From positions 32,232,001 through 32,296,000 of the forward strand of contig CM027380.1 of NCBI GenBank assembly GCA_015680905.1: a stretch of DNA of 64,000 bases, read 5' to 3'. This document shows, one piece after another, positions 743 through 52,027 of the stretch. A model generated the notes under the pieces. That model saw only the letters and a list, made by a program, of their open reading frames with translations. It was not told where the DNA came from and did no database searches. The first letter of the stretch is position 1. Each line of letters opens with the position of its first letter. Made by a program: the position numbers and the translations under genes. The stretch is from Coptis chinensis (lineage: Eukaryota > Streptophyta > Magnoliopsida > Ranunculales > Ranunculaceae).

Positions 743-2007
743 TAGGGGTGGGAATTTGGCCCTAACGACCCTAACCCGGCCCTGACCGACCCGACCCTAA
801 GCCCTATAAAGCCCTCACAACTAAAGCCCTCACAGAGTTTAGGGCCGGGCCGGGCCGGCCCTAATGCTTTCTAGGGCAGGGCTAGGGTTAAGATTCTAAA
901 ACATAGGCCCGACCCTAACCAAGCCCTAACCAAGCCCTAACCGGCCCTGTTTCATACTTTCACTATAAATACACATACCATAATTGTCCAACTCTTTGTT
1001 AAATATTTTCAATTAAAATAACATTGTCCTTTGTAATTTATCACTTACACCCAAGGGTACTTCCAATAACTTGTTTTATATAACAAAAATTTGTCAACTT
1101 AGCAGCCATGAAGAACAATGAGCACTAGCCTAATAAAAAATAAGACTTTATTCCTTTGATCATCAAGTCAAAGTCCATAACTTATTATTCTCAATTTCTT
1201 TTCTCACTTATTTCTTATAAATTATATTTTTATTCACATCCAAGCCAAGTCTAAAACTAAAGGTTTCCTTCCACACCATTAAAGCAAAATACGAGCGCGG
1301 ACATTTGTAACATAGAAACCAAAAACACCCTTTGTGGAAAAATGACATTTATAATCTCAAACCTTTCTCCATCACTTGTTCAAAAGCCAATATTTTCATT
1401 TCCATATACAAAGCTTGAATCACTTTTAAATTAGAAGAAAAGTAATATTATATTTGTTTGAATCTATTATAGAAATAATTTATGATATTACAAATAGTTT
1501 AACAACTTCCATGACCCTTAACCAAAACTATTATGTTTCTTCTTTATATCTATTACTTCTTCCTTTAAAATGATAATATAATTATTTGTCTATGTATTTC
1601 AATGTTAAATGTAATTTTAGTGAGGTTTGAGTACAAGGAAGAACAAATTCCGAACTCTCGATGTACTTCAGTTCATTAGATTGTGGATGTGCATTTTAAA
1701 TTTTTGGACTTATACATGATTATTACTAGATTGGTTGGACTTTGAGTTTGTAGATTATTGTACATTTTTGTAATATAAATGAGTTTTAAAACTAATGTAG
1801 TAAAAAAAAAGAAAATATATAGGCCCGGCCCTAAAGCCCGACCCTAAAGCCCTTAAAGAGGGCTAGGGTCAGGGTCAGGGCTTGAGATTTAGACTTGTGA
1901 CCCGGCCCTATGCTGACTTTAGGGCCGGGCCGACCCGGCCCTAATATCTGAAGGGCTTTAAATGTTTAGGGCCAGGCTAGCCCGACCCGGCCCATTGCCC
2001 ACCCCTA
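743..2007. mobile_element. Non-autonomous hAT transposon in element A
   Basis: A 1265-bp insertion flanked by a perfect 8-bp duplication, ATCCCTAC (735-742 and 2008-2015), which is the hAT hallmark. It begins TAGGGGTGGG and ends CCCACCCCTA, giving 10-bp perfect terminal inverted repeats. The outer ~150-200 bp at each end are rich in GGCCC/GGGCC and CCCTAA-like subterminal repeats; the middle is AT-rich. No transposase is visible, so it must have moved using enzyme from elsewhere. Element C shows the uninterrupted target near 61620-61640. An open frame at 1962-2222 that crosses the right end is a chance fusion. Confidence 0.95.
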
Positions 2008-2015
2008 ATCCCTAC

Positions 2016-3198
2016 CTCTTCAAGTATTATTCCGACCAACTAATCCGTCGTTGCATCCCCGATTGGGAACACAATGATGTGTTATCCTTCTGTCATGAAC
2101 AATCTTGTGGTGGTCATTTTAGTGGTAAGAAAACTGCGGCCAAGGTCCTACAATGTGGATTCTATTGGCCAACACTGTTTAGAGATGCACATGAGCATTG
2201 CAAAGCATGCAATCGCTGCTAGCAGCTAGGACGCATTACTCAACGCAATATGATGCCCTTAAATCCCATTTTAATTGTGGAAATCTTTTATGTATGGGGC
2301 ATCGACTTCATGGGTCCATTTCCAAATTCACATGGCTTCCTATACATTCTAGTAGCAATTGACTATGTGTCAAAATAGATTGAGGCATTGGCATGTCGTG
2401 CTAATGATCATAATACGGTCGTTTTGTTCGTAAAAGAAAATATTTTCTCTCGATTTGGTGTTCCAAAAGCTATAATTAGTGATGGGGGAAAACATTTCTG
2501 CAATAAATTTTTTGAATCTTTAGTAAAAAAATATGGAGTCACGCGACAAAGTGGCAACTCCGTATCATCCTCAAACCCGATTGGTCAAGTAAAAGTCTCT
2601 AATAGAGAGATCAAATCCATTTGGAAAAAAGCGTCAATCCATCTAGAAAAGATCGGTCTCTACGATTATCGATGCCTTGTGGGCATCTGGGAACAACTTT
2701 TAAGACACCTATAGGGATGTCTCCTTATCGCCCTCGTTTTTTTGGAAAACCTTGTCATCCGCCGGTTGAACTTTGAGCACCGCGGCTCTATGGGCCATCA
2801 AAAGCCTAAATTAGAATACTAATGCGGTAGGCGCGAAGAGAAAATTGCAGTTAAATGAGCTTGAGGAAATTCGGAGTGATGCTTATGATCTCTCGAAATC
2901 CTATAAAGCCAACATGAAAAGAGTGCATGACAAGCACATATTGAGAAAAGATTTCAATGTGGGTCAAAAAGTTTTGTTGTATAACTCAAGATTACACATT
3001 TTTCCAAGAAAATTAAAAACTCGATGGTCTGGTCCTTTCACCGTCTCTGCTGTCACTCCTTATGGGGCTATTTCTTTGCAAAACGTAAATGATGACAGCG
3101 AATTTCAAGTAAATGGCCAACGCCTTAAACATTATCATGAGTTGCGCTCTCCAGATGTCGAAGAGACTCTTCTCAATGATCCAGTCTACATAGACTAA
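2016..3198 (+). pseudogene. pol: Element A integrase
   Basis: Integrase region of the Athila-like polyprotein. The N-terminal zinc-binding HHCC module is visible (CHEQSCGGHFSGKKTA, then CKACNRC). The catalytic core follows, with an IISDGGKHFCN segment carrying a core acidic residue and a SNREIK segment. The C-terminal part (about 2845-3198) reads [20 protein letters not shown], then a KTRWSGPF motif, as in B (31148-31405) and C (62530-62775). No chromodomain is apparent, in line with Athila. It would join element DNA to chromosomal DNA in the nucleus. It is broken, with several breaks. Confidence 0.87.
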
Positions 3199-3360
3199 TA
3201 GATTCGATGGTGTACTTCTTTCCATGTGTTTAAACAGAGAAAGTACGCCATTTGGGTAGCCGAGCCCTCTTCTATTTTCTTTTCTTAAAATCCCTAGAGT
3301 GTGTGGTTGCAAGCGCTGGAACCATAGTCTACAAAAACTCTACTTCAGAACTGAGTATAA
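3199..3360 (+). other. Integrase-to-accessory-gene spacer (A)
   Basis: Short non-coding spacer. It holds a conserved AGTGTGTGGTTGCAAGCGC segment (about 3298-3316) that recurs at the same place in C (near 62908) and in variant form in E (near 9646) and B (near 31482). The conserved position before the next gene suggests a regulatory role, which is inference. Confidence 0.5.
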
Positions 3361-3705
3361 ATGTATTCTGATAATCTAGCATACGTGCCTCCTGGAAAAC
3401 AATGGGTACCAAAAATCTCACCTCCTTCTTTCTCCTCCCTTTTCTATTCTCTTCCTCGCGAACTCCAACTCATCATTTGGTGTAAATCTCGCCCATCTCG
3501 AATTGGTAATGGTCGTAGTACTTTTGCTCGAAAGCGACGTGCGCGAAGGATGGGGTGGTGTATGAATTGTCAACAACGCTTCTGTCCAGGTCTTGATCTT
3601 CTATCCGAGATGAGCCGGTATAAGGTATATTATTGTCTGACACCAGCTCAGCAGGATAAACTTCGTCGTCGTTCCGTTGTTCCCACAGGTTGGGATTCGT
3701 CTTGA
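3361..3705 (+). CDS. Basic Cys protein resembling carlavirus NABP (A copy)
   Basis: A 114-residue open frame directly after integrase. It reads as an N-terminal region with RELQLIIW, an Arg-rich stretch GRSTFARKRRARR (about residues 54-66), a CMNC pair followed by another Cys (C-x2-C-x4-C), a CPGL motif, YKVY and a C-terminal VVPTGWD. Three more copies occupy the equivalent region of related elements (10545, 46013, 62968), so it belongs to the family. From memory, carlavirus nucleic-acid-binding proteins (Pfam Carla_C4) share a GRSxYARRRRA stretch, a CxxC pair, a C-x-PGI motif, KV and VIP in the same order. I infer a nucleic-acid-binding accessory protein. The viral zinc finger has a longer spacer and four Cys, so zinc binding here is uncertain. 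Confidence 0.72.
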   Translation: MYSDNLAYVPPGKQWVPKISPPSFSSLFYSLPRELQLIIWCKSRPSRIGNGRSTFARKRRARRMGWCMNCQQRFCPGLDLLSEMSRYKVYYCLTPAQQDKLRRRSVVPTGWDSS

Positions 3706-3797
3706 GGATCTGACGATAAAAAACTCACATTCGTCTTGAGGATCTGACGTTAAAAGACTCACATTCGTCTTGAGGATCTGACGTAAAAAGACTCAAC
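3695..3797 (+). repeat. Three tandem 34-bp motif copies after the accessory gene (A)
   Basis: Three head-to-tail copies with core CTTGAGGATCTGACG followed by TTAAAAGACTCAC. The first overlaps the stop codon of the accessory gene. Element C has the same triplet at 63302-63402. E, B and D carry single divergent copies (about 10412, 10893, 31683, 45889 and 46352). GTCTT at the start can pair with AAGAC near the end of each unit. The function is unknown. Confidence 0.85.
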
Positions 3798-3837: not shown

Positions 3838-4115
3838 CCAAAGAAAGTCGTGATATGCAACATCGGACATTTCCTAGTTCGTGCGGGCAACGGATTCCAC
3901 CAGGCCAACCCCGATCGGTTTTCTATGTGACTGTATCAAGGGGCAGTTTGAGGCTATACCATATGTACTAAGGGTAATATTATTATTAGACCATTGCACA
4001 TTGGTCGGGGGATGGTACGAATCCGAACCCTAGGCCCCAAAACATAAAGGTTAAGCCACGACCGGCTGGATTGGGTTCCCCAGGCCGACATGAAAGTTGC
4101 CTGAGTTAAGCTGTT
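3838..4115 (+). other. Conserved non-coding block with CCCC/GGGG hairpin (A)
   Basis: Non-coding block shared with C (63470-63720), E (9880-10110) and D (45365-45575). Landmarks are ACCAACCCC-like text, a CCCC (3909-3912) that can pair with GGGG (3940-3943), then GGGGCAGTTTGAGG, a TACTAAGGG motif, CTGGATTGGGTTC, and GAAAGTTGCCTGAG at the end. Loop sequences differ between copies while the paired ends persist. A structured RNA or splice-related element is a reasonable inference. Confidence 0.6.
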
Positions 4116-4888
4116 GTGATGTGTTATTTTATTTGGACTTCCGGTGTTGTTGACACGTTCCTTTTGTCTTGTACATTTGTATATAAAAGTGTAAATAAAT
4201 TAAAAAAAAAAAACACACATATAAAAGTACTCCAAACAAACTACTCCGTTGGTTTTTGGAATCCTGATACTCTGATAGATGAACAGAACGACCCAAGCTC
4301 AAATTCTGACCATTTATTTGATGAAAATGCCATGCTGAACATTATTAATCCCATGGAAGGCATTCAACTTCTTCATCATGGTTTGAGGGAATTACACGCT
4401 CGTTTGAATATCATCATCACAACTCTTAAGGATTTCCAAGAACGTCAAACAATGCATGATGTTGAACAAGAGGAGATCTTGGAAAATCATTCTCAATCCT
4501 TGCAAAATCACGCTCTCCTAATGGAAAATCAAACTGTACTCTCTGCCAGCCAAGGGGACATTCAGATGTAGCTCGGCCAACAAATGGAAGAACTAAACAG
4601 TCTGGTGCATGATATGCGTCTCCAAGATCAACATAACAATCCATAATTTTCTAATATTACTAAGTCAATAAATAAATACTCGTATATGTTATTACATTTT
4701 TCGTCGTATTATCAATTTTGTCTTAGCTTTGTGTTTTCTTTTGTATGAAATGCTTAATAGGATTGTCACCATTTGCGTTGTGACTAATATAATTTAACAT
4801 GTGCTTACAGGAGGGTCTATTCTCTTACATACTCATTTATCCATCCAGTTTGCCTTTGTCGTTACCTATTTCTTTACTTCATCCACTA
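4116..4888 (+). pseudogene. X1 gene, C-terminal coiled-coil part only (A)
   Basis: From about 4260 the translation contains NPMEGIQLLHHGLRELHARL followed by a long Gln/Glu/His-rich helix-like stretch with heptad-like hydrophobics. This aligns with the X1 tail in E (QPMDGIHFLHGGQRILAQ at about 19060-19120). The conserved N-terminal X1 domain is not present here. The remaining 4650-4888 is an AT-rich spacer before X2. The piece is a fossil of X1, probably a coiled-coil oligomerisation tail. Confidence 0.6.
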
Positions 4889-5871
4889 TGGCATCTTCAT
4901 CAAACATGGTATCTCCCAAACTCATTCCTGAGCAATCCTTTCAGTCTATGATGGATTCCAATACCTATGGCCATCTCTTTCGTGACTACATTACAAACAT
5001 CGGATGGTCTTCCCTAATTCTTCAACCTGACCAAACTTATTCTCCGAGTTTGGCTGCATACTTTTATGCTAATATGGAAGACACACTAGCATTCAACCAT
5101 GTGCATGGTTTCTACTTAGACGGGTTCACAATCCAAGTTGGTGACACACCTCATATCTTTTCTGAACAACAACTTGCACTAACTTTGGATCTTCCATATC
5201 ACGAACCTGTTGCATCATGGCATTACATCTATCATAATTCTTACCGTTCCTTTCAGTGGCAAGTGTTTCGTGAAACTTACGGTGATGGTCTTGAGATTAA
5301 ACGAGAAGGAAATGGCCATGTGGCATGGCGTGACGTCACCATTCCTTTAGCATGCATGACCATGAACATGGGGACTGCGATGTTATTTGTACTCCTGAAC
5401 ATTATGGGAGATTGGCATTTTTCTACTGCCAATGAGGCTGCTTGCATCGTATTCAGTGCACTAGCTCAAGGTCATACATTATTTAACATCATAGGTTGTG
5501 TTATCTCCAACCTGAAATGAGCTCGCACTTTTCAGGATCAGTATATACTTTTACCGGTCACCGCTTGCCGAATCATGAAGACACATTTCCCACAGTTTGC
5601 AGCTACTTTTCATGATTGGGTCAAGGTAGATTCTATGTGCCCAACAAACAGAATCATTCGTTCATTGAGGTTTCGGCAATGGAAGCGTCCCGCTCGGTAC
5701 CTGAGGCATGTTCGTTGTTACCCGAAGGATGAAAATATGAAGACACATTTGAGGAAATCTGGAAACGAAGAATGGGAAGAAATTTGGCAGACTATTATCT
5801 TTTGGCGCGATGCTAAGGAAATGCATTTCCTTCAAGAAGATGCCAGAACTTCACATCCTGCTGGATGGTAA
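4889..5871 (+). pseudogene. X2 gene, 'putative plant transposon protein' type (A)
   Basis: Third extra gene of the family, downstream of X1. The translation starts MASSSNMVSPKLIPEQSFQS; other landmarks are GWSSLILQPDQTYSP, SLAAYFYAN, MNMGTAMLF, LNIMGDWHFS, and a C-terminal part with CPTNRIIRS. B (34441-35360) and F (53067-53873, minus) carry the same order. The PEQxF...GWxxL...FYxN signature is what I associate with the 'putative plant transposon protein' domain (Pfam Transposase_32 type) found in Athila-like open frames. No signal peptide or clear membrane anchor is seen, so the envelope position does not show an envelope function. The copy is broken. Confidence 0.72.
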
Positions 5872-7641: not shown

Positions 7642-9089
7642 TGATAAGCACCCAAAAGTGTATTATGAAACCCCGTTGAGACATATAAATTTGGTTAACT
7701 ATGTGTTTAATAATCATGAAATAAATATGTTTTCATACTTTTGCAGGTATTCGCAGTAAACATGGAAATATGGTTTAAACCTACGATAAAGCACGAGGAA
7801 CGACATATATATGAATTCTTCCAAATCCGCACAGAAGCATCAAACTTCCGAAGCTCCTACCTCTTGAACCAGGACTCCGAATGCGACAAGTGAGCTACTC
7901 AGACAATCAGGGCGATGAACTCTACGCATAGGCGGGAAGTTGTAAAATTGCCCAAAGATCGGACCACCACTGGACTGCACATAGGACCCACTATGCGGGC
8001 CCACAAGATTGGATGAGTCATCAATCATGGAGCATGTCAAGACAAAAATGACAAATTATTGGTGCAAAGTTGACACCTTGCATATAATTAATTAGATTAG
8101 GTGTTAATAGTGAAAAAGAGGCAAGGTGTCACTTTGTTTTAATGTGGTGGATAAAAATGAAGTAAATGTGGTTTGATGTTTCACATGGGAGGAAATGAGA
8201 TGTCTCTCAAATGGAGAAGAAAACAAAACAAGGGGACACTCCATTTAGTCCCTTGACTTCTTTTCCTTACCTTGTATTATTTTAGTTCCTTAGCCATTTT
8301 TATTATTTAGTTTTAGTTTTGTAAGAAAAGCTTGTAATAGTTTTAATGGAGGAAACTTTGGTTTTCTTCTAAGAAATAAATAAAAAATCAAGTGAGTTTA
8401 GATAGTTAGTTTTCTTTTTCCTCTTTCTCTCTCTCTTTTTGTATTTCTAACTAGTAATCCTTTGCCCCAAGGATCATGAGCTAACTTCCCTTTAGGGGAG
8501 TTAATCCAACTCATGTGAGGGAAAATATTTGTTGTTGGGTTGGTAAGTTGTTTAGGAAGAACAACTAGACCTACATCCTATCCTAAAATGATAGTTGGTG
8601 TAGTGTCTAGTTAGGAATCAAAGTGATGAGCTTAGAGATAAGTCATTGCTTGGTTCCACTTGCTAACATGTATGAGCTTAGAGATGAGCCATACATGCTA
8701 GGGATCAAGTTTTCTTCCATTATGGCTTGTCTATGAGTCTAGGAAGAATCAAATGAACCTATTCAAATCAACATCAAAAAGTTAGTTTCACATGAGGAGG
8801 ATTGGCTCTCCACCTTTTTCTTTAGCAATTTGTATTTTGTCTTAGTTTCATGATTTCTAATCTTAATGTTCTTCTTTAATGTTTGTGTAGGAAAGAAACT
8901 TAGTATTTGTATTAACTTACTCACTAGTTCCCTAAGAGTAAAAACCAAATTGTAGTTGTCCTAGACTTTAGGTTGGTTCGAATCCTTATTTCAACTTTAC
9001 GAACACGAAGATCGTGAGTAAGGAAACTTTGAATTCGCTATTTTGCCAAATTAGAGAGTCAATCTCTAACATAGTAAAGCTTATATCAA
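7642..9089 (+). repeat. 3' LTR of element A (1448 bp)
   Basis: Starts TGATAAGCACCC directly after the polypurine tract and ends TTATATCA. It is the same LTR family as the 5' LTR of C (53874-55918): both share the opening, TTAATAATCATG-like text and CATGAGCTAA followed by a C-rich/G-rich hairpin (about 8485-8505 here, 54805-54840 in C). The inside carries promoter and polyadenylation signals in principle; I could not place a clear TATA box. Confidence 0.88.
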
Positions 9090-9094
9090 CTTGT

Positions 9095-9553
9095 CTTTGG
9101 AAAACCTTGTCATCTGCCAGTTGAACTAGAGCATCGTGCCCTGTGGGCAATAAAAACCCTTAATTATAATTTCGATGCGGCAGGTGAGAAGCGTAAATTA
9201 CAAATAAACGAACTTGAAGAGATTCGTAATGATGCTTATGACCTTTCAAAAGATTACAAAACCAACATGAAACGGATTCATGATAACCATATTTTACAAA
9301 AACAATTCGAAGTTGGTCAAAATGTTTTGCTTTATAACTCAAGATTACATCTTTTCTCAGGAAAATTGAATACTCGATGGACTGGTCCTTTCAAATAACT
9401 GAAGTTACCCTTTATGGGGTTATTACTTAAAAAATTCATAAGGATAACAACACTTTTCAAGTAAATGGTCAGCGCCTCAAATATTTTCATGAGTTGCTCT
9501 GTCTATGGATGTTGATGAAACCATTCTCCAAGATCCCATCTACAAGGATTGAA
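9095..9553 (+). pseudogene. pol: Element E integrase, C-terminal part
   Basis: Homologous to the end of the B and C integrases: [10 protein letters not shown]-like text at the start, [43 protein letters not shown] and LNTRWTGPF. The upstream part is separated by the whole of element A. This is a fossil fragment. Confidence 0.82.
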
Positions 9554-10544
9554 TACTCTTTTCCGATGTATTACTTTCCCATTCCATTCCATCTTTTGCT
9601 TTAAGGGGATATATCAATAAGGTAACTGGACCTCTCCATTTGGAGGGTGTGGTTGTAAGTGTCGGAGCCTTAGTCTACAGTATATCTTGCATATTCTTTG
9701 TAAAATACTTTTTACTCATCGTTTAAGTAAGTGTGAACCTGTGGAGCGAGTATACAATTTTTCTTTTCTTTATCTTACACTTCTTTTTCAAAAATGTTTG
9801 ATTTCTTTGTGCTATTAATGATAGATTCTCGATACATCAATAGTTAAGTAATTTTTCAAAAATGGTCAATGGATTTCACATAGACCAACCCCTAAAACTA
9901 CGCAATCTAGGGGCAGTTTGAGATCAGCTTTGCTTACTAAGGGTCGCCTATATCACCGAGCTATTCGCCCGGGTCAGGACATTCCATGTCTTGCGCAGTA
10001 AATCTCCCAACTCGCGTTGCTGAAGCTTTGTTTGTCTAGATTGGGTTCGCCACAAAGACAACACAAAATTTGCCTAAGAATATCTGTTATGATTTGTTTT
10101 AAAGTAATAAAATCTAGAATCACTGCTTTTGAGTACGAGTTTCTTAAAATATCTCTCCACAGTTTTCAAAATCAGAAGATATTAGAAAATAAAAGTTATA
10201 CGTCAGGAGTAACCAAAATGATACCGGGTTAACGTATAATTTTATCTTCTTGGCAAACCCTTAATCTATATGGATAGAGATATATTTTGAATGAGAAAAC
10301 AAACCCAAAAAAAATGAGGTGTCTCCAAACAAGAATTAAACAAATAGAGTAACCCAAAGTAATACTATTCTCTGTTTAATTCTATATTTTAGCCTCCACC
10401 TCTCTATTTTGTCTCGAGAATCTGACGTTAAAAAACTCAAAAGTTTCCAAAAATTTCAAAAATTTCCTCTCTTAAAAATCTTACCCCTCTCGTTTAAATC
10501 TTTTTCCCTTCTAAATCTCTCTCGTCTCTGAAATTTTTTCAAAA
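9554..10544 (+). other. Post-integrase conserved non-coding region (E)
   Basis: No credible gene. It is closely related to D: a segment around 9693-9780 (ATTCTTTGTAAAA...GGAGCGAGTATACAA) matches 43500-43590, and 9797-10110 matches 45290-45575. It holds the CCCCTA (9889-9894)/TAGGGG (9908-9913) hairpin, GGGGCAGTTTGAG, and one copy of the GAATCTGACG motif at about 10412. In E and D the hairpin block lies before the accessory gene; in A and C it lies after it. Confidence 0.65.
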
Positions 10545-10862
10545 ATGTCCTCTGTAACAAACAAAAACCCTCCACCTAGCAAGACTAGATGGATCAGTTT
10601 CAATGATCGTGTGCAAGCACTTCTTAGAGAACTACAACTTAAGATATGGACACATATACCGAAAATCATTCCTGGATTAGGTAAGAGTTCATACGCACGT
10701 AAGAGACGCGCTATGAGAGAAGGCTGGTGCTTGAATTGTCAAACACCAACTTGCCATGGTCTTCAACCTCATAGCAATTCTGTTTATAAAGTGTACACGA
10801 ATTATCCTCCAGTGCACTATGCTCAGTCTAAAAGAGTAATCCAACCATCTGGTTGGGATTGA
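10545..10862 (+). CDS. Basic Cys protein resembling carlavirus NABP (E copy)
   Basis: An uninterrupted 105-residue frame starting MSSVTNKNPPPSKTRW. Landmarks are RELQLKIW, GKSSYARKRRAMREGWCLNC (Arg-rich stretch running into C-x2-C), TPTCHGL, VYKVY and C-terminal VIQPSGWD. It aligns with the copies at 3361, 46013 and 62968. The order matches what I recall of carlavirus Cys-rich nucleic-acid-binding proteins, which bind nucleic acid and in chrysanthemum virus B act in the nucleus. The calculated character is small, soluble and strongly basic, with no membrane segment. The start is supported by alignment with the start in C. Motif copies flank it at about 10412 and 10893. I infer nucleic-acid binding; the exact role is unknown. 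Confidence 0.75.
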   Translation: MSSVTNKNPPPSKTRWISFNDRVQALLRELQLKIWTHIPKIIPGLGKSSYARKRRAMREGWCLNCQTPTCHGLQPHSNSVYKVYTNYPPVHYAQSKRVIQPSGWD

Positions 10863-11456
10863 CTCAAGTTTTCAAAAACTTCCAAGTCTTGGGGATCTGA
10901 CTTAAAACGACCCACCTTTATAAAATTTTCATCAAACTTATTCAAAACCCAAAAAAATTAACTAAAATTTTCTTTATGTTATCTGTACATATTTTCCTAC
11001 ATTTCCTTCCTTTATATGTTCTTTTTCCATTGTTGGATGTGAATGTACCTTATAACCTTACATTGAAGTTTTGATGCTGATCGGTTTGGTACCTCATGGG
11101 TCAAGATCGGATGAGTAACAAAGCACGGATCGGCTCCTGAAGTTAGCAAGGCATTGAGGACAAGATCAGAATTTCCTTTATTCATATGGGCTTGGGCCAA
11201 AATTTCGAGTTTCTTAAAAAGGCACGTGCCTCGCACGTGCCATCAACCCATATTTATAACTCGCGACTGCCCATAGTCATATTCTCGATCGAAAAATCCC
11301 CAACCCTAGCCGCCTACACCAACTTACAATCGCGCCTATTCAACTCGCAACCGCGACCTCACTTCAACACACCACCACCCAAGTTTTTCACAGCCTGCTC
11401 CATTTTCAACCCCCATTCCAAATCACAACCCTAATTTAATCAATTCCTACTCTAAA
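10863..11456 (+). other. X1 leader region (E)
   Basis: Non-coding. It includes a copy of the GGGGATCTGACTTAAAACGACC motif family (about 10893), then a block conserved before X1 in every element: TTGATGCTGATCGGTTTGGTA near 11073 followed by GGGCTTGGGCCAAA near 11188. Equivalents lie near 31975-32100 (B), 46555-46690 (D) and 63878-64000 (C). The last 200 bp, with ACCCTAGCCGCC, matches D at 48238. Confidence 0.55.
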
Positions 11457-12016
11457 ATGGCTCGAGCTCTAAAAATCGTGTCGGACCAAAATTTTCAAGA
11501 CCTCTTCTATTCCAACCTGTTTGAAGGGCACTTCAGGGCAGAGATAAGGAGAAGAGGATGGGAATCTTTGGTTGTGATGGAAGAAGCGGTTTATTCTCTT
11601 TCTCTTATGCCATCATTCTATAATTTCATGGTTAGAGGGGAGAATGAATGCGTCAAGGTTGTTAAGGATGGCAGAACGCTGGAGCTTACCAAGGAGGTGG
11701 TGAGTGCTATTCTGGGGATTCCTCTAAAATCTTATGTTCAGATAGAATAGTCCCCAGATAACAAGATAATGGATGTGCTCATGGTTGACATTCTTCTCAA
11801 AGGGGTGAAAAACCCCAAGTCTCACTGTGTGTTTCAGAGTTCGCTACCAAAGAACCAGCTAGCAGTATCTTAGTGGACAGCCTACTACCTGCTAGGCTCA
11901 ACCAAACCTTCGGATATAGGTAAGGCGATGCTCTATCTTTTATGGATTCTTCAAGAGCAGAAGAATGATTTTTGCATCGTTTCCTTCCTTTTCAAGCAAC
12001 TCTGCAAACCCAAGAA
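11457..12016 (+). pseudogene. X1 gene, N-terminal part (E)
   Basis: The translation begins MARALKIVSDQNFQDLFYSN, followed by EIRRRGWESLVVMEEAVYSLSL, PSFYNFMVRGE, and VKDGRTLELTKEVVSAILGI. The spacing of the F..., GWxxL and FYNF motifs matches X1 of B (32408) and D (48372), and more distantly X2. This is the 'putative plant transposon protein' type domain. The gene continues after the copia insertion at 18870. It is a fossil split by that insertion, with additional breaks. Confidence 0.7.
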
Positions 12017-13266: not shown

Positions 13267-13268
13267 AT

Positions 13269-22030: not shown

Positions 22031-24023
22031 GTTTTTCCTCTCATCCTTCACCGGTTTTTTTTTCCACTGCAATTCAACAAATAAAACTAAAAGAAAGCAA
22101 CCATAACATCAATTATTTTTTAATATGCAATAAGCAACAAATTTTCAATAAATAAAAATGAGTAAATTCACTCAATTTTATACAAAGGAGTTGCATAATT
22201 CCTATCATAAACAAAAGCAACTCTAAACTTCCCTCGAGCAGCTTGCAACTAAAATCGTCTTAACATAAAAACTAAATTGTGCCATAAAATAGCATATAGA
22301 TTCATTTGGAGCCTCTTGCAATTCGGAATCACCATTTCTTCACAAAAACACAATACCGACCCACTTCTCTTGTGACGTAAGATTATCTGTACACAAAAAT
22401 ATTATCCATTAGACTACGAAAAATATAATCACGTCAGAAGTAAAATCCGGCCAACTATTAACAATTACATTAAGTTTAAAATGTTTAAAATGTATCCAAA
22501 GAAGTTATCAAAGTCCCAGTTCAAATTAGCAATACAAGACAGAGATAGTAGTAGTAATATGGGTGGAAGAGTTCACTTAAACAAGATGCAATAGTGGTTT
22601 CCTTCATCATTTTCAACTACAATTTCTAATATCGAAGGTAACATATGTCCAGAAATAAAAAGGATTTATAGCTTATATACTTCTGACCATTACCGAAAAA
22701 CTTATGATATCCTCATAAAATATAGAACTAATATTCCACAACTTGTCTAATGCACTACTTGTATCAAAGGTTTCATTGCCTTGCTCATCCATTATAACAG
22801 CAGCAAATTTAGCTATAGTAACTCCATAAGAGAATGTATACATGCATGGCTCCATAATAAAACTACTTCTCATCAATTTAAACAAACAAAACATGCATGA
22901 AAATAAGCATGCTAAATATTGGTAATGTAAGTTCCTACCTTCTCACGCTTCCGTATCACCACTCGTTCCAAATAACGAACTATACCCCTCGTTGGCTCCT
23001 AGAAGTCAAGTACACATAATTAAAATCTAAGAATTATTTATTTAGCATAGAAATATGAAATATACAAGTACGTACAACAATTAAAGACGAGATACTAAAT
23101 GCTACATACCATTAATCTAATTAACGTTCTACCCATATATTTAATATATATTAAGTCCTAGGCTGCTATAGGCACAATTTTTTTAGGTTTACAACTGTTC
23201 TATATATGTGAAACTTCAGGATGGGGCAAAGGTGAAGTTTTAATATGTTTAAAGGTTTACAACTGTTCTCAATATTTTGCTTAATAAATAAAAACTTCAC
23301 CTTCAAACAAATAGCCTAGACAGTTCAACCCACAAACAATCACTGAGTGGAAAAGAGGCCTTGTGGAAATCCACCAAAAGAAGGTTAAGAAAGTGTACAA
23401 CAAAGGTTACTGAATACTGATGCTCAACACAAGCACATGATTTACACAATCCCCTTCAATCTTCTTGCTGCCAGACCATCATCTCTCAAGCTTCCAAGCA
23501 TCCTTTGTCTAGCTGACAACCATACTTCCAAGTGTCTTTTGTTTCTTCATGATCCAAATCCACAATCATCATTCTCAAAATCTCTAGCTCAGACAGCAGA
23601 AAATCAAAACCGCAAACACATCCACTTCTAACTCGTCATTTCTCCAAGCAATAGCAACGAGATGATTCAAATGCAAATGGTCTTTCTAGACCTCAGAGTG
23701 GGAAATGCTTGAGATTTCTCTCTCAATTTGGATATTTGTTGATTAAAATAGAAGGTTAGAAAAACAACTTGAGAAACTCTCGCGAAAATCTCAATATTCT
23801 TGAGTAAGGTTCAAAAAGGAAGAAATGGAGAGTACTCTAAGGTCCAATCTATTATCTTCTATTCTTCTTAGACGCTACTGATCCCCCTCTTAGTTCTTTT
23901 TGCTACTTACCAATATTTTAACACATCAGGGGCAAAATCTGACATTTTCCCTCAAAATATTCACACAGGGACAGAGGGCCAACAAATTTTTTGAACCTGG
24001 ATTATAAAAAATCCATTGCTACT
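22031..24023 (-). pseudogene. CACTA interior: exon-like fragments, minus strand
   Basis: On the minus strand a 60-bp segment (22939-22998) bounded by AG and GT reads EPTRGIVRYLERVVIRKREK. Downstream, at about 22740-22860, MEPCMYTFSYGV and KFAAVIMDEQGNETFD look like real coding sequence. I do not recognise the protein. The same strand carries exon-like pieces on the far side of B (39060-39289, 40773-40848), so this may be one gene fragment captured by the transposon. The remainder (23000-24023) shows no clear gene. Confidence 0.4.
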
Positions 24024-25145
24024 TGATAAGAGTCCAAAACTATAGTTTTAACCCCTCAATAATCATACTTTTAGACCAATTATGCGAGTAATAAATAAGA
24101 GTTAATGCTGATTACGTGTTTTTATGTATTTCAAGCAGTAAAGTCAATTATGTGCAGAAATGTGCCACTTTGGCGAGATAAAGGAGCAAGGGTTGGTTGC
24201 TAAAAAGTTCTATGATAAAGGCCAAGATTCAAGGAGACAAAGCCTTTGTAAATCCCGGTCAAAAGCTGAAAAGTCAACACGGGCAGAAATAGTGCACAAG
24301 TCGGCAGAACTTCTGAAGACCATATCTTTGGACTCAGACCTCGGAATTGGGCCTACCTTACATCAAAACGACCGACTCGGAAAGAGCTTTCCAATGGTCT
24401 AAGCCTTGACCAAATCAGAGGAGTAAAAGTGGACGAAAAGTCTTCTGAAGTCGCAGCCAGCTGAAACGGGCTCTGTGGACTGAAGAAATTAGGCTTTGGG
24501 CTCGATTTTCCGGCCCAAAACATGGCTCCTCAGCCCATGCACGAAATTGTGAATCTGGTCTCTTCCTTTGTATAAAATAAGACTTAGCTCTTAAGTTAGA
24601 TATAGTTAGATAGGTTAGAGTAAACAGTAGCCATTAAAATAGCTTCTAGATCTAGTTTTATTTGAATTTAATTAGTTAAATTAATTTGTTTCAATTCATT
24701 GTCTTAGATTAATCCTTTGAATCATTGTTCTTCATTTAGTTAGATAAATAAAATAGTTATTCTTGTCATTTCAATTTATTAGATCTAATTTCAATTGTTG
24801 TTATTCAATTCTTAGTCATTAATTAGATTTGAAGTATTGGTTAATTAAAAGTAGTAAAGTTCACATCTTTATATATGTCATTTTGTTATTCGTATCTTGT
24901 CGTTCGAATTCACGTCGTAGTATAAAACCTCCACCATTGCTCTCATTAAACTTTGGATTACTAGTTAATTGTAGAAAACTTCAATACTAAGGAACTGAGA
25001 GTGGAACGAACTTTTTACTCCACTCTATTTCGATAGAATTGAGAGTATAGAAATCTTTGATAGATTTTCGTAATTTAGTTTAGTTTTCTTGCGTTTTGAG
25101 TTTAACGTTCATTTCGTAGGTAAACTAGTCTTTTTATGTTTATCA
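24024..25145 (+). repeat. 5' LTR of element B (1122 bp)
   Basis: Runs from TGATAAGAGTCC to GTTTATCA. A TATA-like TATAAAATA lies at 24571-24579. Very similar to 37217-38353 and clearly related to the solo LTR at 46757-48221. Confidence 0.93.
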
Positions 25146-25147
25146 AA

Positions 25148-25160
25148 TGGCGTCGCTGCC
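25148..25160 (+). promoter_or_regulatory. Primer binding site of element B
   Basis: TGGCGTCGCTGCC, two bases after the LTR, close to the TGGCGCCG-type site of relatives at 43264 and 55921 and to the 3' end of tRNA-Asp. Confidence 0.75.
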
Positions 25161-25760
25161 ATCTTAGTACTCTTTAGTATTGTTTTCTGTAGACTTCATA
25201 GTTTTTCAAAGTCCCATATCCCACCCACCCTTGTTTGGATTTTCACTGTGGTTGTTTGTTTCAGCTTTGCACGTTTCCACGAAAAATTACTCGGAGCGCA
25301 CCTGCGCCCTGGGCAAGCCAAAGTGGAGCGCACCCTGCGCCCACACGCCTGGAATCTTGAAGTTTGTATGAGTGCCACCTACGCCCTACCAAGGCCAACT
25401 TAGAGCCACTTAGCCCCACACGCTGGAATCAATTTTTTTTTCTCGAAGCGACGACATACTGTCTAGGCATATTCTGAGCGCACCCGTGCCCTCTGCTGAA
25501 ATAGCCTAATTTCCACAAGTTTGTTCAAATTTCCATTGCTTTCAAGTTTTTCAGTGTTCTAACTTGTGATTTACACTGAGCAAGCGTAAACAAGACGCTA
25601 TTCATAAGCGAAGCAAGGGGACTTTCAGGTATTCTTTTCTTCCACACCTCGCATCTTCTGTTAGAGGTTCATACTAGCATATCAGGATTGTTTGGAGTGT
25701 TGTTGTTTTAATTAAGATTGGTCTTAGCCTTGCATGAGATTAAGGTCAGGCTGAAGAAAA
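25161..25760 (+). repeat. Element B leader with GAGCGC tandem units
   Basis: Non-coding leader before gag. Between 25293 and 25492 there are about five imperfect units in which GAGCGC (or GAGTGC) is followed after 3-6 bases by GCGCCC, ACGCCC or GTGCCC, each able to form a short GC hairpin. ACGC-CTGGAATC text recurs between units. Similar units lie before X2 (34190-34370). Small open frames over this region are repeat artefacts. Confidence 0.7.
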
Positions 25761-27113
25761 ATGCCTAACGTAATTAACCGACAACGTCAACAAACACGCC
25801 TTTCTAGTATACCACTCACTTTACCTCTAGCTAGCACACCACACACCACACCTGAGATTATGGCTGAAGAAAGAGAGTCTCCTCTCTCAGACTTTTATAA
25901 AGCCTTGAGCGATAGCCCTAAATCTTGCATCGTTCTATCAGACCCAATGGGGGATTTCCGAATCCCCCCAAATATATTTAATTTGTTACCCGTTTTTCAT
26001 GGGTTAGACCATGAAAAACCTTATCAACACATGCGTAGGATTGACCAAGTCCTTACTACCTTCCACCATCCTTCGGTTGGTGCTGAACAAATTAAACTGA
26101 GGGTATTTCCCTTCACTTTAGCCGATAAGGTGGCATCTTGGTTAACTGCCCAAGCGCCTAATTCTGTGGACTCGTGGGCTAAACTTGTTCAACTATTTAT
26201 GGAACATTTTTACCCACCACTGAAGACCGATGAAATGCTTTCCAAGATTCATTTCTTTCGACAGAATCCTCATGAATCATTTTCAGAGGCTTGGAATCGT
26301 TTCACCGACCTTCTTATAGAGTGTCCACACCATAACCTAGCGAAAGACATGTTATTTCGTGCCTTTTTCAAAGGACTTCTACACCACCATAAAGAAGTCC
26401 TTGACATAATGAATGGGGGTAGTTTCTTAAGTAAAAGAGCCTTAGAGGCTTATAAATTTTTAGAAGATCAGACTAAGCGGAATAATCATTGGGGGGGTAG
26501 TGATGATATCTCCCGTTCCGCTATTTCTTCTACAACAGCTAAAGCCGCCAGTATGTTTCAGATGAAACCCAATCCAGAACTTAAAAATTTAATCGAATCT
26601 CTAACTAAAAAGGTAGAGGCTATCTCTGTCCAACAAAAGCCTATCCCCATCATGAATGTCAACTCCAACCCATGTAATTTCTGTTTGAGTCCAGCGCACC
26701 CCGACTCCTATTATCTTTTCGTTTACGAACAACAAACATTACAACATGATAACGTTTGCTCAATTAATAGTTATCCTATTCCTAACGCCCCTTGGAGACA
26801 ACACCCCAACTTCAGTTGGAGAAATAATCAACAAATAATAACTCCAGGGTTTAATAATCAAAATGTTAGGCATGCAAACAATTATAACCAACCGCCACCA
26901 CGACAAGGACAAGGTCAGGGTAATTATAACAATTATAACAACCAAGCACAACCACGACAAGGTCAGGGTCGTTATAATAATTATAACAATAATAATAATT
27001 ATAATGTTAATAGAGGTATCGTTCTGATAAATAATAACTACCAAAATCCACCCATAAATAATCAACGGGACATAGTTCCTGTCACACAACCTATAGCTAA
27101 CACTTTTCGATAA
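25761..27113 (+). CDS. gag: Gag of element B
   Basis: A 450-residue open frame. The retrotransposon Gag domain spans about residues 60-215: DFRIPPNIFNLLPVFHGLDH, LRVFPFTLADKVASWL, SVDSWAKLVQLFMEHFYP, FRQNPHESFSEAWNRFTDLL and ECPHHNLAKDMLF. A CNFCLSPAH cluster lies near residue 315. The last 90 residues are very rich in Asn, Tyr, Gln and Arg (NNYNNYNNQAQPRQGQG and similar), probably a flexible RNA-binding region. Gag would assemble cytoplasmic particles around the RNA. The aligned start of C (57355) begins within this frame at MAEERESP, so an internal start at 25859 is also possible. Confidence 0.88.
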   Translation: MPNVINRQRQQTRLSSIPLTLPLASTPHTTPEIMAEERESPLSDFYKALSDSPKSCIVLSDPMGDFRIPPNIFNLLPVFHGLDHEKPYQHMRRIDQVLTTFHHPSVGAEQIKLRVFPFTLADKVASWLTAQAPNSVDSWAKLVQLFMEHFYPPLKTDEMLSKIHFFRQNPHESFSEAWNRFTDLLIECPHHNLAKDMLFRAFFKGLLHHHKEVLDIMNGGSFLSKRALEAYKFLEDQTKRNNHWGGSDDISRSAISSTTAKAASMFQMKPNPELKNLIESLTKKVEAISVQQKPIPIMNVNSNPCNFCLSPAHPDSYYLFVYEQQTLQHDNVCSINSYPIPNAPWRQHPNFSWRNNQQIITPGFNNQNVRHANNYNQPPPRQGQGQGNYNNYNNQAQPRQGQGRYNNYNNNNNYNVNRGIVLINNNYQNPPINNQRDIVPVTQPIANTFR

Positions 27114-28130
27114 CCGGATCGTTTCAATACATTTATACAATCTCAACAACAGACTTTGCAAGCCATCCAACTTTCCTTACAGCAGCTAGCCCAAGAGAAC
27201 GTACAACCCAAAGGTGTGTTAACAGGACACACGATACCTAATCCTAAAATAACAAACACAGCCTTTGAGGTGGACGATAATACTAGTACGGATAAGGTAA
27301 AAATGTAGGTGAGCTAAGTGCCATCACCACTCTCCGTTCTGGCAGAGTGGTTGATAACAATGTAGCTATGCCTATAGTTACCCCACAAGTAGTCCCTACA
27401 CAGGAGATGGAACTAGATACCCAAATGCAAACTGGTGAGCCTACCCCTGTAGCGGTACCAGTTAAATCGAAACCTATGAAACAAAAAGCAAAGGTTAGAC
27501 ATCTAGTTGAACCATATGCTAGGCATAGAGAGACACCACCGTTTCCCCAGAAATTAGCTATGTTAAACAGAGATACAAACTTTGACGAGATTAGGGAAGT
27601 ATTTAAGAATCTAACGATTAACCTACCCTTTCTCAAAGCAATTAAAAAATTACCTCACCACGCTAAGTTTCTTAAGGAGTTGTGCACTACTAGGCGTAGG
27701 ACAAATATTCCTAAAGACGCCTTTCTAACTGAACAATTTCCAACTTTAACAGAACATAATGGAATTATGAAGTACAAGGACTCTGGTCGTCCTACTGTAC
27801 AATGCACCTTAGGAGATTCTCACACGACCACAGCTTTATTGGACCTGGGGGCAAGTGTCAACTTACTCCCGTATTATTTATACAAACAAATAGGTCTGCA
27901 AGAGATGCAACCTACTCAAATGACGTTGCAATGAGCGGATAGGTCTATTAAGTATCCTAAGGGTGTGGTTGAAAACGTGCTAGTTAAGGTCCAGGATTTC
28001 TACTATCCTACTGATTTTGTTATCCTCGATGCAGAGGTCGTTAATGACTCTGTTCCGATCATCTTAGGGCGTCCATTCTGCCAACGCGCTTATAAACTGC
28101 CGAAATGGTTCGATGTCCTTGTCTTTTGGC
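27114..28130 (+). pseudogene. pol: Element B gag-pol linker and protease
   Basis: A linker with KLTINLPF-like text (LTINLPFLKAIKKLPHHAKF) followed by an aspartic protease-like domain: CTLGDSHTTTALLDLGASVN with the DLGAS active-site motif at about 27840, then LLPYYLYKQIGL. The same module is at 58604-59866 in C. The protease would mature the polyprotein. It is a fossil region with some breaks. Confidence 0.82.
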
Positions 28131-30050
28131 CATCTTTCGGTTGAAGTAAATGTGTTCAAAATGATGAAACAGTTACCAGATTCATCTATAGATGGAGCGA
28201 TTAGCATGATCGAGAGATTAACTCAAGATTACTTTAATAACACGTTTCCAGAAAACCATATGCATAAATTCCTTTCTTTAGGAAGTTCAGATTTTGTCAA
28301 TGACTCCTACGTACAAGAAGTCAACACCATCTTCGAGTCTAACCAAATCGTAGAACCTTTGGTTGCTCCATATATAGAGTTCGAAGACCTGTTGCCTAAG
28401 CAAGTATTCATTACTCAAGATGAGGACCCCCCAGAAGCTTTTATCGACATACCAACCGCTCCGGTTATTAAACCTCTTCCTCCTGAGTTAAAATATATTC
28501 AACTTGATCCGGATGGTAGTCATCCGGTAATTATATCTTCTCTCTTATCTAAGGAGGAAGAGACATGTTTAATCAGGGTGATTAGGGAATATCGTTCTGC
28601 GATTGGTTGGTCCCTAGCTGATATTAAGGGAATTGTCCCTAATGTGTGTACTCACCGTATCCATTTGGAGGATAATGCAAAGACTTCTCGCGAACCTCAG
28701 CGTCGTTTGAACCCGGCCATGAAAGAAATGGTCAGGGAAGAAGTCTTACGGTTACTTGATGTGGGTATCATATACCCAATCTCTGATAGCGAATGGGTTA
28801 GTCCCATTCATGTAGTTCCAAAAAAATTAGGGATTACAATGGTACGTAATGCAAAGGGTGAATATGTTGCCACACATGGTCCCATGAAATGGAGGATCTG
28901 TATTGATTACAGACGTTTAAATGCCATGACATGAAAGGATCATTTTCCCTTACCCTTTATAGATCAGATGCTAGAACTTTATAGATCAGATGCTAGAACT
29001 TTATAGATCAGATGCTAGAACGTCTAGCTGGTCATGCCTTTTACTGTTTTTTGGATGGCTACTCTGGCTATTTCCAAATTATTATCGATATTGATGACCA
29101 AGAAAAGACTACATTTACATGTCCCTTTGGAACATACGCCTATAAATGCATGCCTTTTGGCCTTTGTAATGCTCTTGATACCTTCCAGCGTTGTATGTTT
29201 CATATATTTAGTGACATGGTAGAGCGTTTCATGGAAGTATTCATAGATGATTTTTCTATCTATGGAGACACTTTCACTGACTGCCTGTCTAACCTATCTA
29301 AGGTTTTGACACGGTGTGAAGAGAAGAGTCTAATTTTAAATTGGGAAAAATGTCATTTCATGGTAAAAAAAGGGCATGGTACTAGGTCACATTGTATCTA
29401 GTGATGGCATAGAAGTTGATAAAGCCAAACTAGATAAGATAGCGACTCTACCTATACCACAGACAATCCGTGATATTAGAGCCTTTCTAGGCCATACAAG
29501 TTTTTATAGGCACTTTATCAAAGATTTTTCGAAAATAGCTAGGCCGCTAACTAATCTCCTTTTAAAGGATGCCATCTTTGACTTTAATTTTAACTGTAAA
29601 CAGGCTTTTGAAACCTTAAAAGACGCCTTAACTTTTGCACCCATTATACAACCTCCCGATTGGTCTAAACCCTTCGAACTCATGTGTGACGCTAGTGATT
29701 ATGCAGTTGATGCTGTCTTGGGACAGAAACTAGATAATAAATCCACTGTTATTTATTATGCTAGTAAAACTCTAAACAATGCTCAAAAGAATTATACAAC
29801 TACTAAAAAAGAATTCTTAGTTGTCGTTTATGCTTTAGATAAGTTTCGTCCTTATTTAGTTGGTTCTAAGACCCTAGTTTACACGGACCATGCAGCCCTT
29901 AGGTACCTTCTCGCAAAGAAGGATGCTAAGCAGAGATTAATCCGATGGATTCTCCTCCTGCAAGAGTTCATAATATAAATAAAAGACAAAAGAGTGGTCG
30001 AAAATGTAGTTGTCGACCATTTATCTAGACTGACAAACAACGATGATAGT
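28131..30050 (+). pseudogene. pol: Element B reverse transcriptase and RNase H
   Basis: RT motifs in order: REPQRRLNPAMKEMVREEVL, VGIIYPISDSEWVSPIHVVP, KWRICIDYRRLNAMT, QEKTTFTCPFGTYAYKCMPF, and VFIDDFSIYGDTF with the xxDD catalytic box at 29243-29251. The connection ([17 protein letters not shown]) and RNase H ([44 protein letters not shown]) follow. Organisation and motifs are Ty3/gypsy, Athila lineage. Broken, several breaks. Confidence 0.88.
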
Positions 30051-31405
30051 GATTCTGAGTCCATACCCGACTCTTTTTCTGATGAGTATTTGTATGCTAT
30101 TTTTTCTACACCATGGTATGCTGACATCGTAAATTATTTAGCGGCTGAGGCTATTCCGTATGATTGGACAAAAAATGAATGTAAGAAGTTCTTGGCCAAA
30201 GTTAAGCTATACTACTGGGATGAGCCCTACCTTTTTAAGTATTGTAAGGATCAGATTATTCATCGTTGTATTCCCCAGTGGGAATATAATGAGGTTCTCT
30301 CATTCTGCCATGAAAAAGAGTGTGGTGGCCATTTCAGTGGTATGAAAACAGCTGCCAAAACTCAACAATGTGGATTTTATTGGCTTACTCTCTTTAAAGA
30401 TGCTCAAGTGCATTGCAAGGCGTGCATTCATTGCCAACAACTTGGGCGCATCACAAAGCATAATATGATGCCATTGAATCCAATCATGGTGGTAGAAATT
30501 TTTGATGTAAGGGGCATTGATTTCGTGGGTCCCTTTCCAGTTTCCCACAGCTTCATCTATATTCTAGTTGCAATGGACTATGTGTCTAAATAGATAGAGG
30601 TCTTGGCTTGCCGTAGCAATGACCATAAGACAGTTGTGTTTTTTGTTAAAGAGTATATTTTATGTCGATTTGGAATTCCCAAGGCCATCATTAGTGATGG
30701 TGGAACACATTTTTGCAACAGAGTTGTTGCATCTCTAGTGAAGAAATATGGAGTTACACATAAGGTAGCAACTCCGTATCATCCACAAACTAGCGGACAA
30801 GTAGAAGTTTCTAATAGAGAAATCAAAAAGATCTTAGAAACAACAGTAAATCCTGATAGAAAAGACTGGTCAAAGCGTTTATCTGATGCCTTATGGGCAT
30901 ATAGGACTGCTTTCAAAACCCCTATCGGTATGTCTCCTTTTAGACTTGTATTTGGAAAACCTTGTCATTTGCCCGTTGAATTGGAGCACCGTGCTATGTG
31001 GGCTATAAAAAGCCTTAACTTTAATTTTGATGAGGCGGGTGTCAAGCGCAAGTTGCAATTGAATGAGCTTGAAGAAATCCGTAGCGATTATTATGACCTC
31101 GCAAAAGATTATAAAACCAACATGAAACGTGTTCATGTAAGCAAATTTTGTGCAAAGAGTTTGTGGTAGGTCAAAAGGTTTTACTTTACAATTCCCGTCT
31201 ACATATTTTTCCAGGGAAATTAAAAACTCGTTGGACTGGTCCTTTTCTGGTTACTGAAGTCACCCCTTACGGGGCAATCACCTTGGTAAATCCCAAGGAC
31301 AACAGTACTTTTCAAGAAAATGGCCAACGGTTGAAACATTTTCACGAGCTATTGTCCCTTGATGTAGAGAAAGTTCTTTTACACGATCCTGTCTATGAGA
31401 ACTGA
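30051..31405 (+). pseudogene. pol: Element B integrase
   Basis: The HHCC zinc module is visible (CHEKECGGHFSGMKTAAK; HCKACIHCQQLG at about 30410-30445). The core has [23 protein letters not shown] and VEVSNREIK, holding the acidic catalytic positions. Then come [20 protein letters not shown] and a C-terminal [20 protein letters not shown] with KTRWTGPF. No chromodomain. Broken, with few breaks. Confidence 0.87.
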
Positions 31406-32407
31406 CCTTTTTCATTGGTGTACTTCCTTTTATTTCCATATATTGGTAAATGCACCATTCAGTTAACTGGGCCCTCCCTATGGAGTGTGTGGCTGTAAGT
31501 ACCGGATCCTAAGTACACGTTTAACATAATTCATGTTTTCCACTCTTGCATGTTTTCTCGGTTTTCGAGTCATGTTCTTCTATGGTGTGAATTATGCTTT
31601 TAATTCTCTCTTGTTTTTCTTATATTAAATTTTATTCATAAACAATAAAAACTTGTTAAAATCACAAACATAGTAAGTTAAGAAGTCTCGAGAATCTGAC
31701 TTTAAAAGACCCACTTTTAAAAAACCAAATTTTCTCAACTCGGTGTCTAAAATTTGTTTGGGGGTGGGGTGTTCGTTTCCATCCTGGATTGTTCAACTTT
31801 ACAGTTGTGTTGTTTAGACCGTTAATTGTATTACGATTCGGATTGACATTTTCTATTAAGTTAGATTTCATTCGTTCGCATAACTTACGTCATGCACGCA
31901 CTTCGAGGCATTTTCCATTTTCTCATATGTAATCCATGACCGGAATAGTGTTTTACAGACCATTATATTGGAAATTCTCTCCTGATCATTTCCATATCTC
32001 ATTCACATAAATCGGAATGGTAACGAAGCGGGAATTTTAGTTTAAAGTTGCGCTAAAAATCGACAAAATCGGAAAATCAAATTGGGCTTGGGCCCAACGA
32101 CGAGCAGCGTCGTCTCCTTCCTCCAACAGATCTGAATTCTTTCCAATTTCCGCCATTGCCAAATTCAAAAACCTTACCCAAAATTAAAATAAAAAGAAAC
32201 CTAAAAACTAACACGCCCCAATACAATTCCAACTTCAAATCTTCTCCATAACAATCCTCCACCAATCCCAAAAATTTCCACCATCGAAAACACACAAAAA
32301 CTCAACCAAATCGACACCCCCGCACCACCACTACTGTTTTGTCAGTAAGGGAGTCTCAAACTCCATTCCCACATTCCAGATAAACCACCAAATCGTTCTC
32401 AGATATC
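31406..32407 (+). other. Post-integrase to X1 non-coding region (B)
   Basis: No gene; the accessory gene of relatives is not found. It holds a single CGAGAATCTGACTTTAAAAG motif (about 31686), a polypurine-like TTTGGGGGTGGGG (about 31758), and the conserved pre-X1 block TGATCATTTCCATATCTCAT near 31983 followed by TTGGGCTTGGGCCCAA near 32081. Confidence 0.6.
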
Positions 32408-46012: not shown

Positions 46013-46331
46013 ATATCTTCTATAGCAAACAAAAACCCTCCACCTAATAAGACTAGATGGATCAGTTTCAATGATCATGTTCAAACACTTCCTAGGGAAC
46101 TGCAGCTTAAGATATGGACATATATACCGAAAATCATTCCTAGTTTAGGTAAGAGTTCATACGCACGTAAGAGATGAGCTAAGAGAGAAGGCTGGTGCTC
46201 AAATTGTCAAACACCAACTTTCCCTGGTCTTCAACCTCATAATAATTCTATTTATAAAGTCTAAATGTGTTATCCCCCAGTGCATTACGCTGGGTCTAAG
46301 AATGTAATTCAGCCGTCTGGTTGGGATTAAC
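46013..46331 (+). pseudogene. Basic Cys protein gene, D copy
   Basis: Readable as a degraded copy of the 10545 gene: NKNPPPNKTRW, RELQLKIW, GKSSYARK, CSNCQTP and the final QPSGWD are recognisable. It lies between the same flanking motifs as in E (about 45895 and 46352). It is a fossil with a few breaks. Confidence 0.72.

Positions 46332-51953: not shown

Positions 51954-52027
<74 letters not shown>

Follow-up and report, generated by a model that had tools for sequence, protein, structure and literature searches.

Introduction

The closest described counterparts of the gene reported here are the small nucleic-acid-binding proteins (NABP), also called cysteine-rich proteins (CRP), of carlaviruses, represented in Pfam by Carla_C4 (PF01623). 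Each is encoded towards the 3' end of the viral genome, in an ORF of its own that overlaps the coat-protein ORF. According to excerpts from PMC3689765, the PVH protein has a mass of 10.9 kDa and a finger of the form C-X2-C-X9-C-X4-C. In excerpts from PMC3689765 and PMC12172455, silencing suppression is reported for the CRPs of PVM, SPCFV and PVH and nucleic-acid binding for that of PVM, and the finger of a mandarivirus CRP is required for cell death; p12 of CVB is described there as a transcription factor, which showed no local silencing suppression in an earlier study and was a weak suppressor in another.

A second group of related systems is formed by the extra ORFs of plant LTR retrotransposons. 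Steinbauerova and co-workers (in 2011) are said to have described a LOGL4-like extra ORF in two elements. Many such ORFs are without known relatives in the excerpted accounts of PMC7264820 and PMC11728184. The present gene resembles the extra 3' ORFs of Athila and Calypso in lying between pol and the 3' LTR (excerpts from PMC11728184 and PMC1142308), but those ORFs, as far as these excerpts describe them, are env-like, transposase-like or unassigned and none is carlavirus-like. In the excerpts from PMC7264820, PMC11728184, PMC4093653 and PMC1142308, the extra ORFs are likewise described without a carlavirus-like relation, and our search of open-access full texts returned no description of a Carla_C4-like or carlavirus-like gene in retrotransposons. 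An extra ORF in an Athila-like element is a known kind of gene, and the surprise here is its probable viral relative; because this relative can be named and has reported functions in plant viruses (silencing suppression and transcription-factor activity), the role of such extra ORFs becomes directly testable.

A third comparison is with VANDAL transposons, which belong to a transposon class other than that of the LTR retrotransposons treated here. Like their VANC gene, whose product is an anti-silencing protein (PMC10398659), the present gene is encoded by a transposable element, is a candidate for counter-silencing and stands beside tandem noncoding repeats. VANC is a different protein, however.

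We analysed a stretch of 64,000 nucleotides from Coptis chinensis (hereafter, the window) together with related copies in the genome. On the evidence given below, the window carries a real accessory gene of two large Athila-like lineages, which codes for a small basic cysteine protein with a putative RNA-binding or anti-silencing role; we consider it likely that this protein and the flexivirus NABPs share an ancestor.

Gene copies and host elements

The window is dense with LTR retrotransposons, and across its elements the domains Retrotrans_gag, Asp_protease_2, RVT_1, RT_RNaseH, Integrase_H2C2 and rve are found in the Ty3/gypsy order, with X1 after pol. A sequence-only reading had described four copies of a gene for a protein of 105-115 residues, placed between integrase and X1 and having the motif order GxSxxARKRRA - CxxC - CxGL - YKVY - PxGW. 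All four copies are present and homologous, as follows.

3361..3705, + strand: Carla_C4-like accessory gene, 3361 type; open, 114 aa, PF01623 match
10545..10862, + strand: Carla_C4-like accessory gene, 10545 type; open, 105 aa, translation with PF01623 match
46013..46330, + strand: broken copy, 10545 type; two in-frame stops, no ATG (begins ATA), 80% identical to 10545
62968..63312, + strand: broken copy, 3361 type; one in-frame stop, 68% identical to 3361

When each copy was compared with the window by tblastn, the other three were recovered reciprocally (weakest E 9.4e-12). The 3361 and 10545 proteins are 45% identical, which defines two types, one formed by 3361 and 62968 and the other by 10545 and 46013. 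A protein of the described length is open in two of the four copies (3361 and 10545), but stops interrupt the other two. The motif order is present with lapses in these broken copies: the one at 46013 has lost the third cysteine (FPGL) and has stops within ARKRRA and YKVY, and the one at 62968 has the variants ARKRRT and FKVY, with its stop just 5' of CxxC.

The neighbouring parts, and an element without the gene, are listed below.

2007..3199, + strand: part of an integrase, immediately 5' of the 3361 gene (tblastn with integrase frames of the window)
491-742: other piece of that integrase, a split zinc-binding part (tblastn with window integrase frames)
4110..5517, + strand: X1 region that follows the 3361 gene, with one frame at 4110-4568 and another at 4798-5517
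9078..9494, + strand: C-terminal part of an integrase, 5' of the 10545 gene (tblastn with integrase frames of the window)
11310..11747, + strand: X1-like frame downstream of the 10545 gene
61381..62797, + strand: integrase of the element carrying the 62968 gene, with RVT_1 (PF00078) at 60144-61058
24023..38353, + strand: LTR-bounded Ty3/gypsy element without the gene; repeats 24023-25145 and 37216-38353, 95% identical
25755-27110: gag of element 24023-38353
29367-29975: RNase H of element 24023-38353
29979-31406: integrase of element 24023-38353

As to the place between integrase and X1, integrase lies within 2.6 kb upstream of three of the four copies, but none was found over this distance upstream of 46013, and X1-like sequence lies downstream of 3361, 10545 and 46013; the end of the window falls soon after the fourth copy, at 62968. 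We rejected an origin of the ORF as a mere piece of integrase or X1, since it has its own frame and most copies retain both its start and its stop codon.

The host elements appear Athila-like. This name rests on the position of the extra gene, on the sequence-only reading and on frame 4798-5517, which is weakly similar to Transposase_32 (PF20167, E 0.0023, under the cut-off), a family noted for an Athila 3' ORF of sunflower in an excerpt from PMC11728184. The element at 24023-38353 has a pol resembling that of the carriers, and a decayed gene copy hidden in it was sought by permissive tblastn on 31300-34400 and rejected (best E 0.041, scattered).

The proteins of the two open copies are small and basic (12.1 and 13.4 kDa, pI 10.2-10.3, net charges of +14 and +12). 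Four cysteines are common to both types, in the arrangement C-X2-C-X4-C-X15/16-C. Each of them is kept in 25-28 of 29 open and broken copies of the 10545 type and in 10-11 of the 11 open copies of the 3361 type, and the window copy at 10545 has itself lost the fourth.

Copies in the genome and protein constraint

The genome searched comprises 935.6 Mb in 116 contigs, and the best 150 of 4503 candidates of the 10545 type and the best 150 of 5912 of the 3361 type were scored. All 150 scored candidates were genuine in both searches, giving at least 150 relatives of each type, with identities among the best 150 of 79-100% (10545 type) and 83-100% (3361 type). By hand count, 43 of the best 150 copies of the 10545 type and about 97 of the best 150 of the 3361 type are without an internal stop.

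The accessory gene is under purifying selection at the protein level. For the 10545 type (29 copies, 406 pairs), the mean dN and dS were 0.071 and 0.206 and the pooled pN/pS was 0.38, and dN/dS was 0.41 among 18 genomic copies; for 20 copies of the 3361 type it was 0.40. In these sets the loci L006 and L060, which are the window's own copies, were omitted and the window copies stand for them, and the pairwise ratios are to be read as a mixture of selection in active lineages and later decay. The copies at 3361 and 62968 differ by a dN of 0.188 and a dS of 0.561; between the two types dN is about 0.63-0.75 and dS is saturated or above 2. Because each type has at least 150 relatives, the protein is constrained and four cysteines are common to both types, the gene stands far above chance.

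Match to the Carla_C4 family

The sequence-only reading had likened the protein to Carla_C4 and had named a Pfam search as the test in advance. With hmmscan against Pfam (24,736 models), the 3361 protein matched PF01623 at 31.4 bits (E 1.8e-7), where its residues 29-78 correspond to profile positions 18-66. The 10545 protein scored 26.5 bits (E 6.2e-6), and here residues 20-65 correspond to profile positions 14-59; the matched spans are equal in length in 10545 and differ by one in 3361. Both whole-protein scores exceed the curated cut-off of 20.9 bits, and none of 10 shuffled or reversed controls matched Carla_C4 (one gave CAF1A_dimeriz at E 0.73), which places the similarity above background, as the reading had expected. 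None of 20 other window frames matched Carla_C4 at E<=0.01. The open N-terminal piece of the copy at 62968 (62968-63165) scored 17.1 bits, under the cut-off.

Besides the 3361 copy, 25 open copies of the 10545 type were scanned, 26 in all; every one matched Carla_C4 at E<=1, 24 at E<=3e-4, a level judged to be near the PF01623 cut-off, and two above E 3e-4. In the 3361 type, all 11 open copies scanned matched at E<=3e-4; these are 11 of 13 open loci, two identical copies having been omitted, and the 3361 copy is counted in both sets. Broken copies were omitted from the alignments behind these counts. Carla_C4 is the only Pfam family that reached E<=3e-4 in either set, and no other zinc-finger or basic-domain family gave a better match. 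The sister viral family Viral_NABP (PF05515) was matched weakly in 10 of the 26 copies (best E 0.0057, none reaching E 3e-4), and 2EXR in 16 of the 26, on the N-terminal helix region (best E 0.017; under its cut-off in 3361).

The match spans about 46-50 residues, comprising in profile order a helix, an arginine-rich basic block (GxSxxARKRRA, next to the finger) and CxxC, and it covers profile positions 13-18 to 59-66 of 91, or about half. The reading had carried the order common with carlaviruses on to CxPGI - KV - VIP, and this part did not stand: the match stops at CxxC or a little beyond it, nothing aligns past profile position 66, so the C-terminal half has no counterpart in the match, and the cysteine spacing common to both types differs from the carlavirus finger as given for PVH in the excerpt from PMC3689765. 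The two genes resemble each other in being separate ORFs in the 3' part, but the retrotransposon gene follows pol and the viral one overlaps the coat-protein ORF.

Parts of two proteins (3361 and a genomic copy, L012) were masked in turn. The Carla_C4 match was lost in both when the basic block was masked. Masking of the CxxC stretch lowered the scores from 31.4 to 22.1 bits (3361) and from 29.6 to 22.2 bits (L012), and masking of the helix lowered them to 25.9 and 21.7 bits, respectively. The basic block is therefore essential, and the helix and finger add about 5-9 bits each. Composition alone as the source of the match is ruled out by these partial masks and by the shuffled and reversed controls.

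Since the match disappears with the basic block, a convergence of an NLS-like block beside CxxC has to be weighed. By this explanation the protein would be unrelated to the viral one, having arisen de novo or from a host zinc-finger gene, and its amphipathic helix, arginine-rich NLS block and CxxC would resemble Carla_C4 by chance. The different cysteine spacing, the dissimilar C-terminal half and the weak 2EXR-like signal on the helix region would agree with such an origin. However, two types that are only 45% identical match the same model in matching position above the cut-off, the helix and CxxC each contribute to the score, the sister viral family is weakly matched as well, and the best E value was obtained against the whole of Pfam; we therefore regard convergence as rather unlikely. 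Shared ancestry with flexivirus NABPs, at least over the stretch from helix through GxSxxARKRRA to CxxC, is in our judgement well the more probable origin suggested by this profile similarity.

Homologue and structure searches

Closer relatives were sought in sequence and structure collections. In a database of 5.8 billion proteins, the 3361 protein gave 5 candidates, none at E<=1; the four window copies gave 108 candidates and 20 copies gave 243, none at E<=10 in either case. A search of IMG/VR with the protein and two alignments returned no relative and no viral NABP sequence. A degenerate motif matched five stretches in IMG/VR, which are GC-rich (60-62%), alike and have stops close by in frame, and these were judged to be chance matches; a second degenerate motif had no match there. 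A search of PDB by sequence gave no match below E 0.08, and AlphaFold, with the two open window copies as input, gave a pLDDT of 41, too low for a usable model.

Possible role and origin

If the relationship to NABPs extends to function, the protein would be made from the 3' part of the element and would bind the RNA of the element, or small RNAs derived from it, through its basic block and cysteine finger. The bound protein could then blunt RNA silencing of the element, or chaperone its RNA, as NABPs do for viruses. By analogy with the viral proteins, counter-defence against silencing may be its main role, a proposal that we hold tentatively and at somewhat less than even chances. The profile similarity may reflect a gene that passed long ago, in either direction, between an RNA virus and a retrotransposon. 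If the homology holds, RNA viruses and LTR retrotransposons are linked by gene exchange, and this would bear on the origin of the carlavirus NABP.

Copies of the gene in elements without pol

Eighteen genomic copies of the 10545 type, each with at least 2.6 kb of upstream sequence, were examined. They are a non-random sample from the best 150. Eight are open copies on the plus strand, read with about 9 kb of sequence to either side; the other 10, some open and some broken, were chosen along the list of hits. In 9 of the 18 (L034, L040, L046, L048, L050, L054, L055, L057 and L059), the next coding part upstream is gag or its end, and the search of the interval from there to the gene turned up no protease, RT, RNase H or integrase. 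The gag of the pol-less copies ends at about the same residue (118-119 of the query in five copies), before the protease domain (residues 289-382 of the frame), and after this break comes the spacer that follows integrase in integrase-bearing relatives. When upstream DNA was compared with that of L048, all eight remaining pol-less copies aligned across the junction; for the window copy, L042 and L056, which have integrase, the alignment to L048 is confined to the stretch that begins about 1010 bases upstream of the gene. The region from protease to integrase is thus missing at one shared junction in half of the copies examined, with gag and the gene kept.

Integrase lies upstream in 2 of the 18 (L042 and L056), as well as in the window copy, and in the remaining 7 the search of the 2.6 kb upstream detected no sense-strand gag or integrase, owing to truncation or later insertions. 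In contrast, all 20 loci examined for the 3361 type, counting the one in the window, have integrase within 1.5 kb upstream. Downstream sequence was read for 8 copies, and in 7 of them an X1-like frame follows the gene on the same strand. At L048/L049 an X1-like frame is on the opposite strand, and a pair of direct repeats there, 92.7% identical, may represent LTRs.

Among the nine pol-less copies, the point estimate of dN/dS was 0.376 for the gene, from 36 pairs, whereas gag gave 0.457 from 28; only pairs with at least 40 shared codons were counted. The gene and gag thus look similarly constrained. Such elements are a natural experiment on which genes of an element cannot be borrowed.

These copies bear on another explanation, in which the protein is homologous to NABPs but serves RNA packaging or chaperoning, as a second nucleocapsid-like protein acting with Gag on the element's own RNA, and not silencing suppression. 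Pol-less copies would then keep gag and the gene since both are needed near the RNA, the polymerase and integrase being borrowable; the shared junction that spares these two parts and their similar constraint would both fit. However, a CCHC-like knuckle is kept in the pol-less gag of 5 of the 7 copies checked, so that the nucleocapsid role is already filled, and retention of the gene may also reflect the endpoint of the deletion. We give the packaging role a low probability and retain counter-silencing as the tentative main role.

Repeated motif beside the gene

The motif GARTCTGACNNTAAAARACYC, with up to 3 mismatches, has 10 matches in the window against 0.14 expected. All of them lie beside a gene copy, except one in the matching interval of the gene-less element. 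The motif copies are located as follows.

3706..3794, + strand: three tandem 34-bp motif units, directly after the 3361 gene
10418..10438, + strand: motif copy upstream of the 10545 gene
10893..10913, + strand: motif copy downstream of the 10545 gene
31692..31712, + strand: single motif copy after integrase in the gene-less element 24023-38353
45897..45917, + strand: motif copy upstream of the 46013 copy
63313..63400, + strand: three motif units, directly after the 62968 copy

The arrangement differs between the two types in the genome, and the following counts include the window's own loci. All 20 loci of the 3361 type have 2-5 units, mostly spaced by 34 bp, immediately downstream of the stop codon. 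Of 28 loci of the 10545 type, 26 have a motif copy 91-132 bp upstream of the gene and 26 have one 30 bp downstream of it (+348/349); at this stringency 25 have both, the others being L033 with neither, L008 with the upstream copy only and L011 with the downstream copy only. The single motif copy at 31692-31712 is similar to each of the two copies beside the 10545 gene, with 90% identity over 29 bp and 83% over 42 bp, and the pattern looks like the gain, or the loss, of a cassette between direct repeats.

A protein that, like VANC, binds this repeated motif and strips silent chromatin from the element would account for the excess of matches and for their regular place beside the gene in both types, and VANC target regions are noncoding tandem repeats in the excerpts from PMC10398659, but we think this quite improbable, as element 24023-38353 has the motif with no gene copy found and the motif may be some other cis element (for RNA processing, or a recombination scar).

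A broader proposal joins several of these points: a gene exchanged between a flexivirus-like RNA virus and an Athila lineage would have been kept as a counter-silencing protein that also recognises the adjacent motif, and a pol-less parasite would have spread with gag and the gene (and X1 in most copies read). If true, an RNA-virus-style suppressor would serve an LTR retrotransposon, or a retrotransposon would be the source of a viral suppressor. This combination is possible but on the unlikely side.

Other repeats in the window

The window had no Rfam match at the gathering threshold. A copia element lies at about 12024-18864, with repeats at 12024-13266 and 17616-18864 (92% identical) and frames for Retrotran_gag_2 and RVT_2. 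When aligned with its reverse complement, the segment 54885-55236 shows 90% identity across 363 columns; it contains 11- and 20-bp tandem units. A 2.2-kb inverted repeat is formed by 34558-36718 and 51692-53872 (84% identity) and overlaps an X1-like frame.
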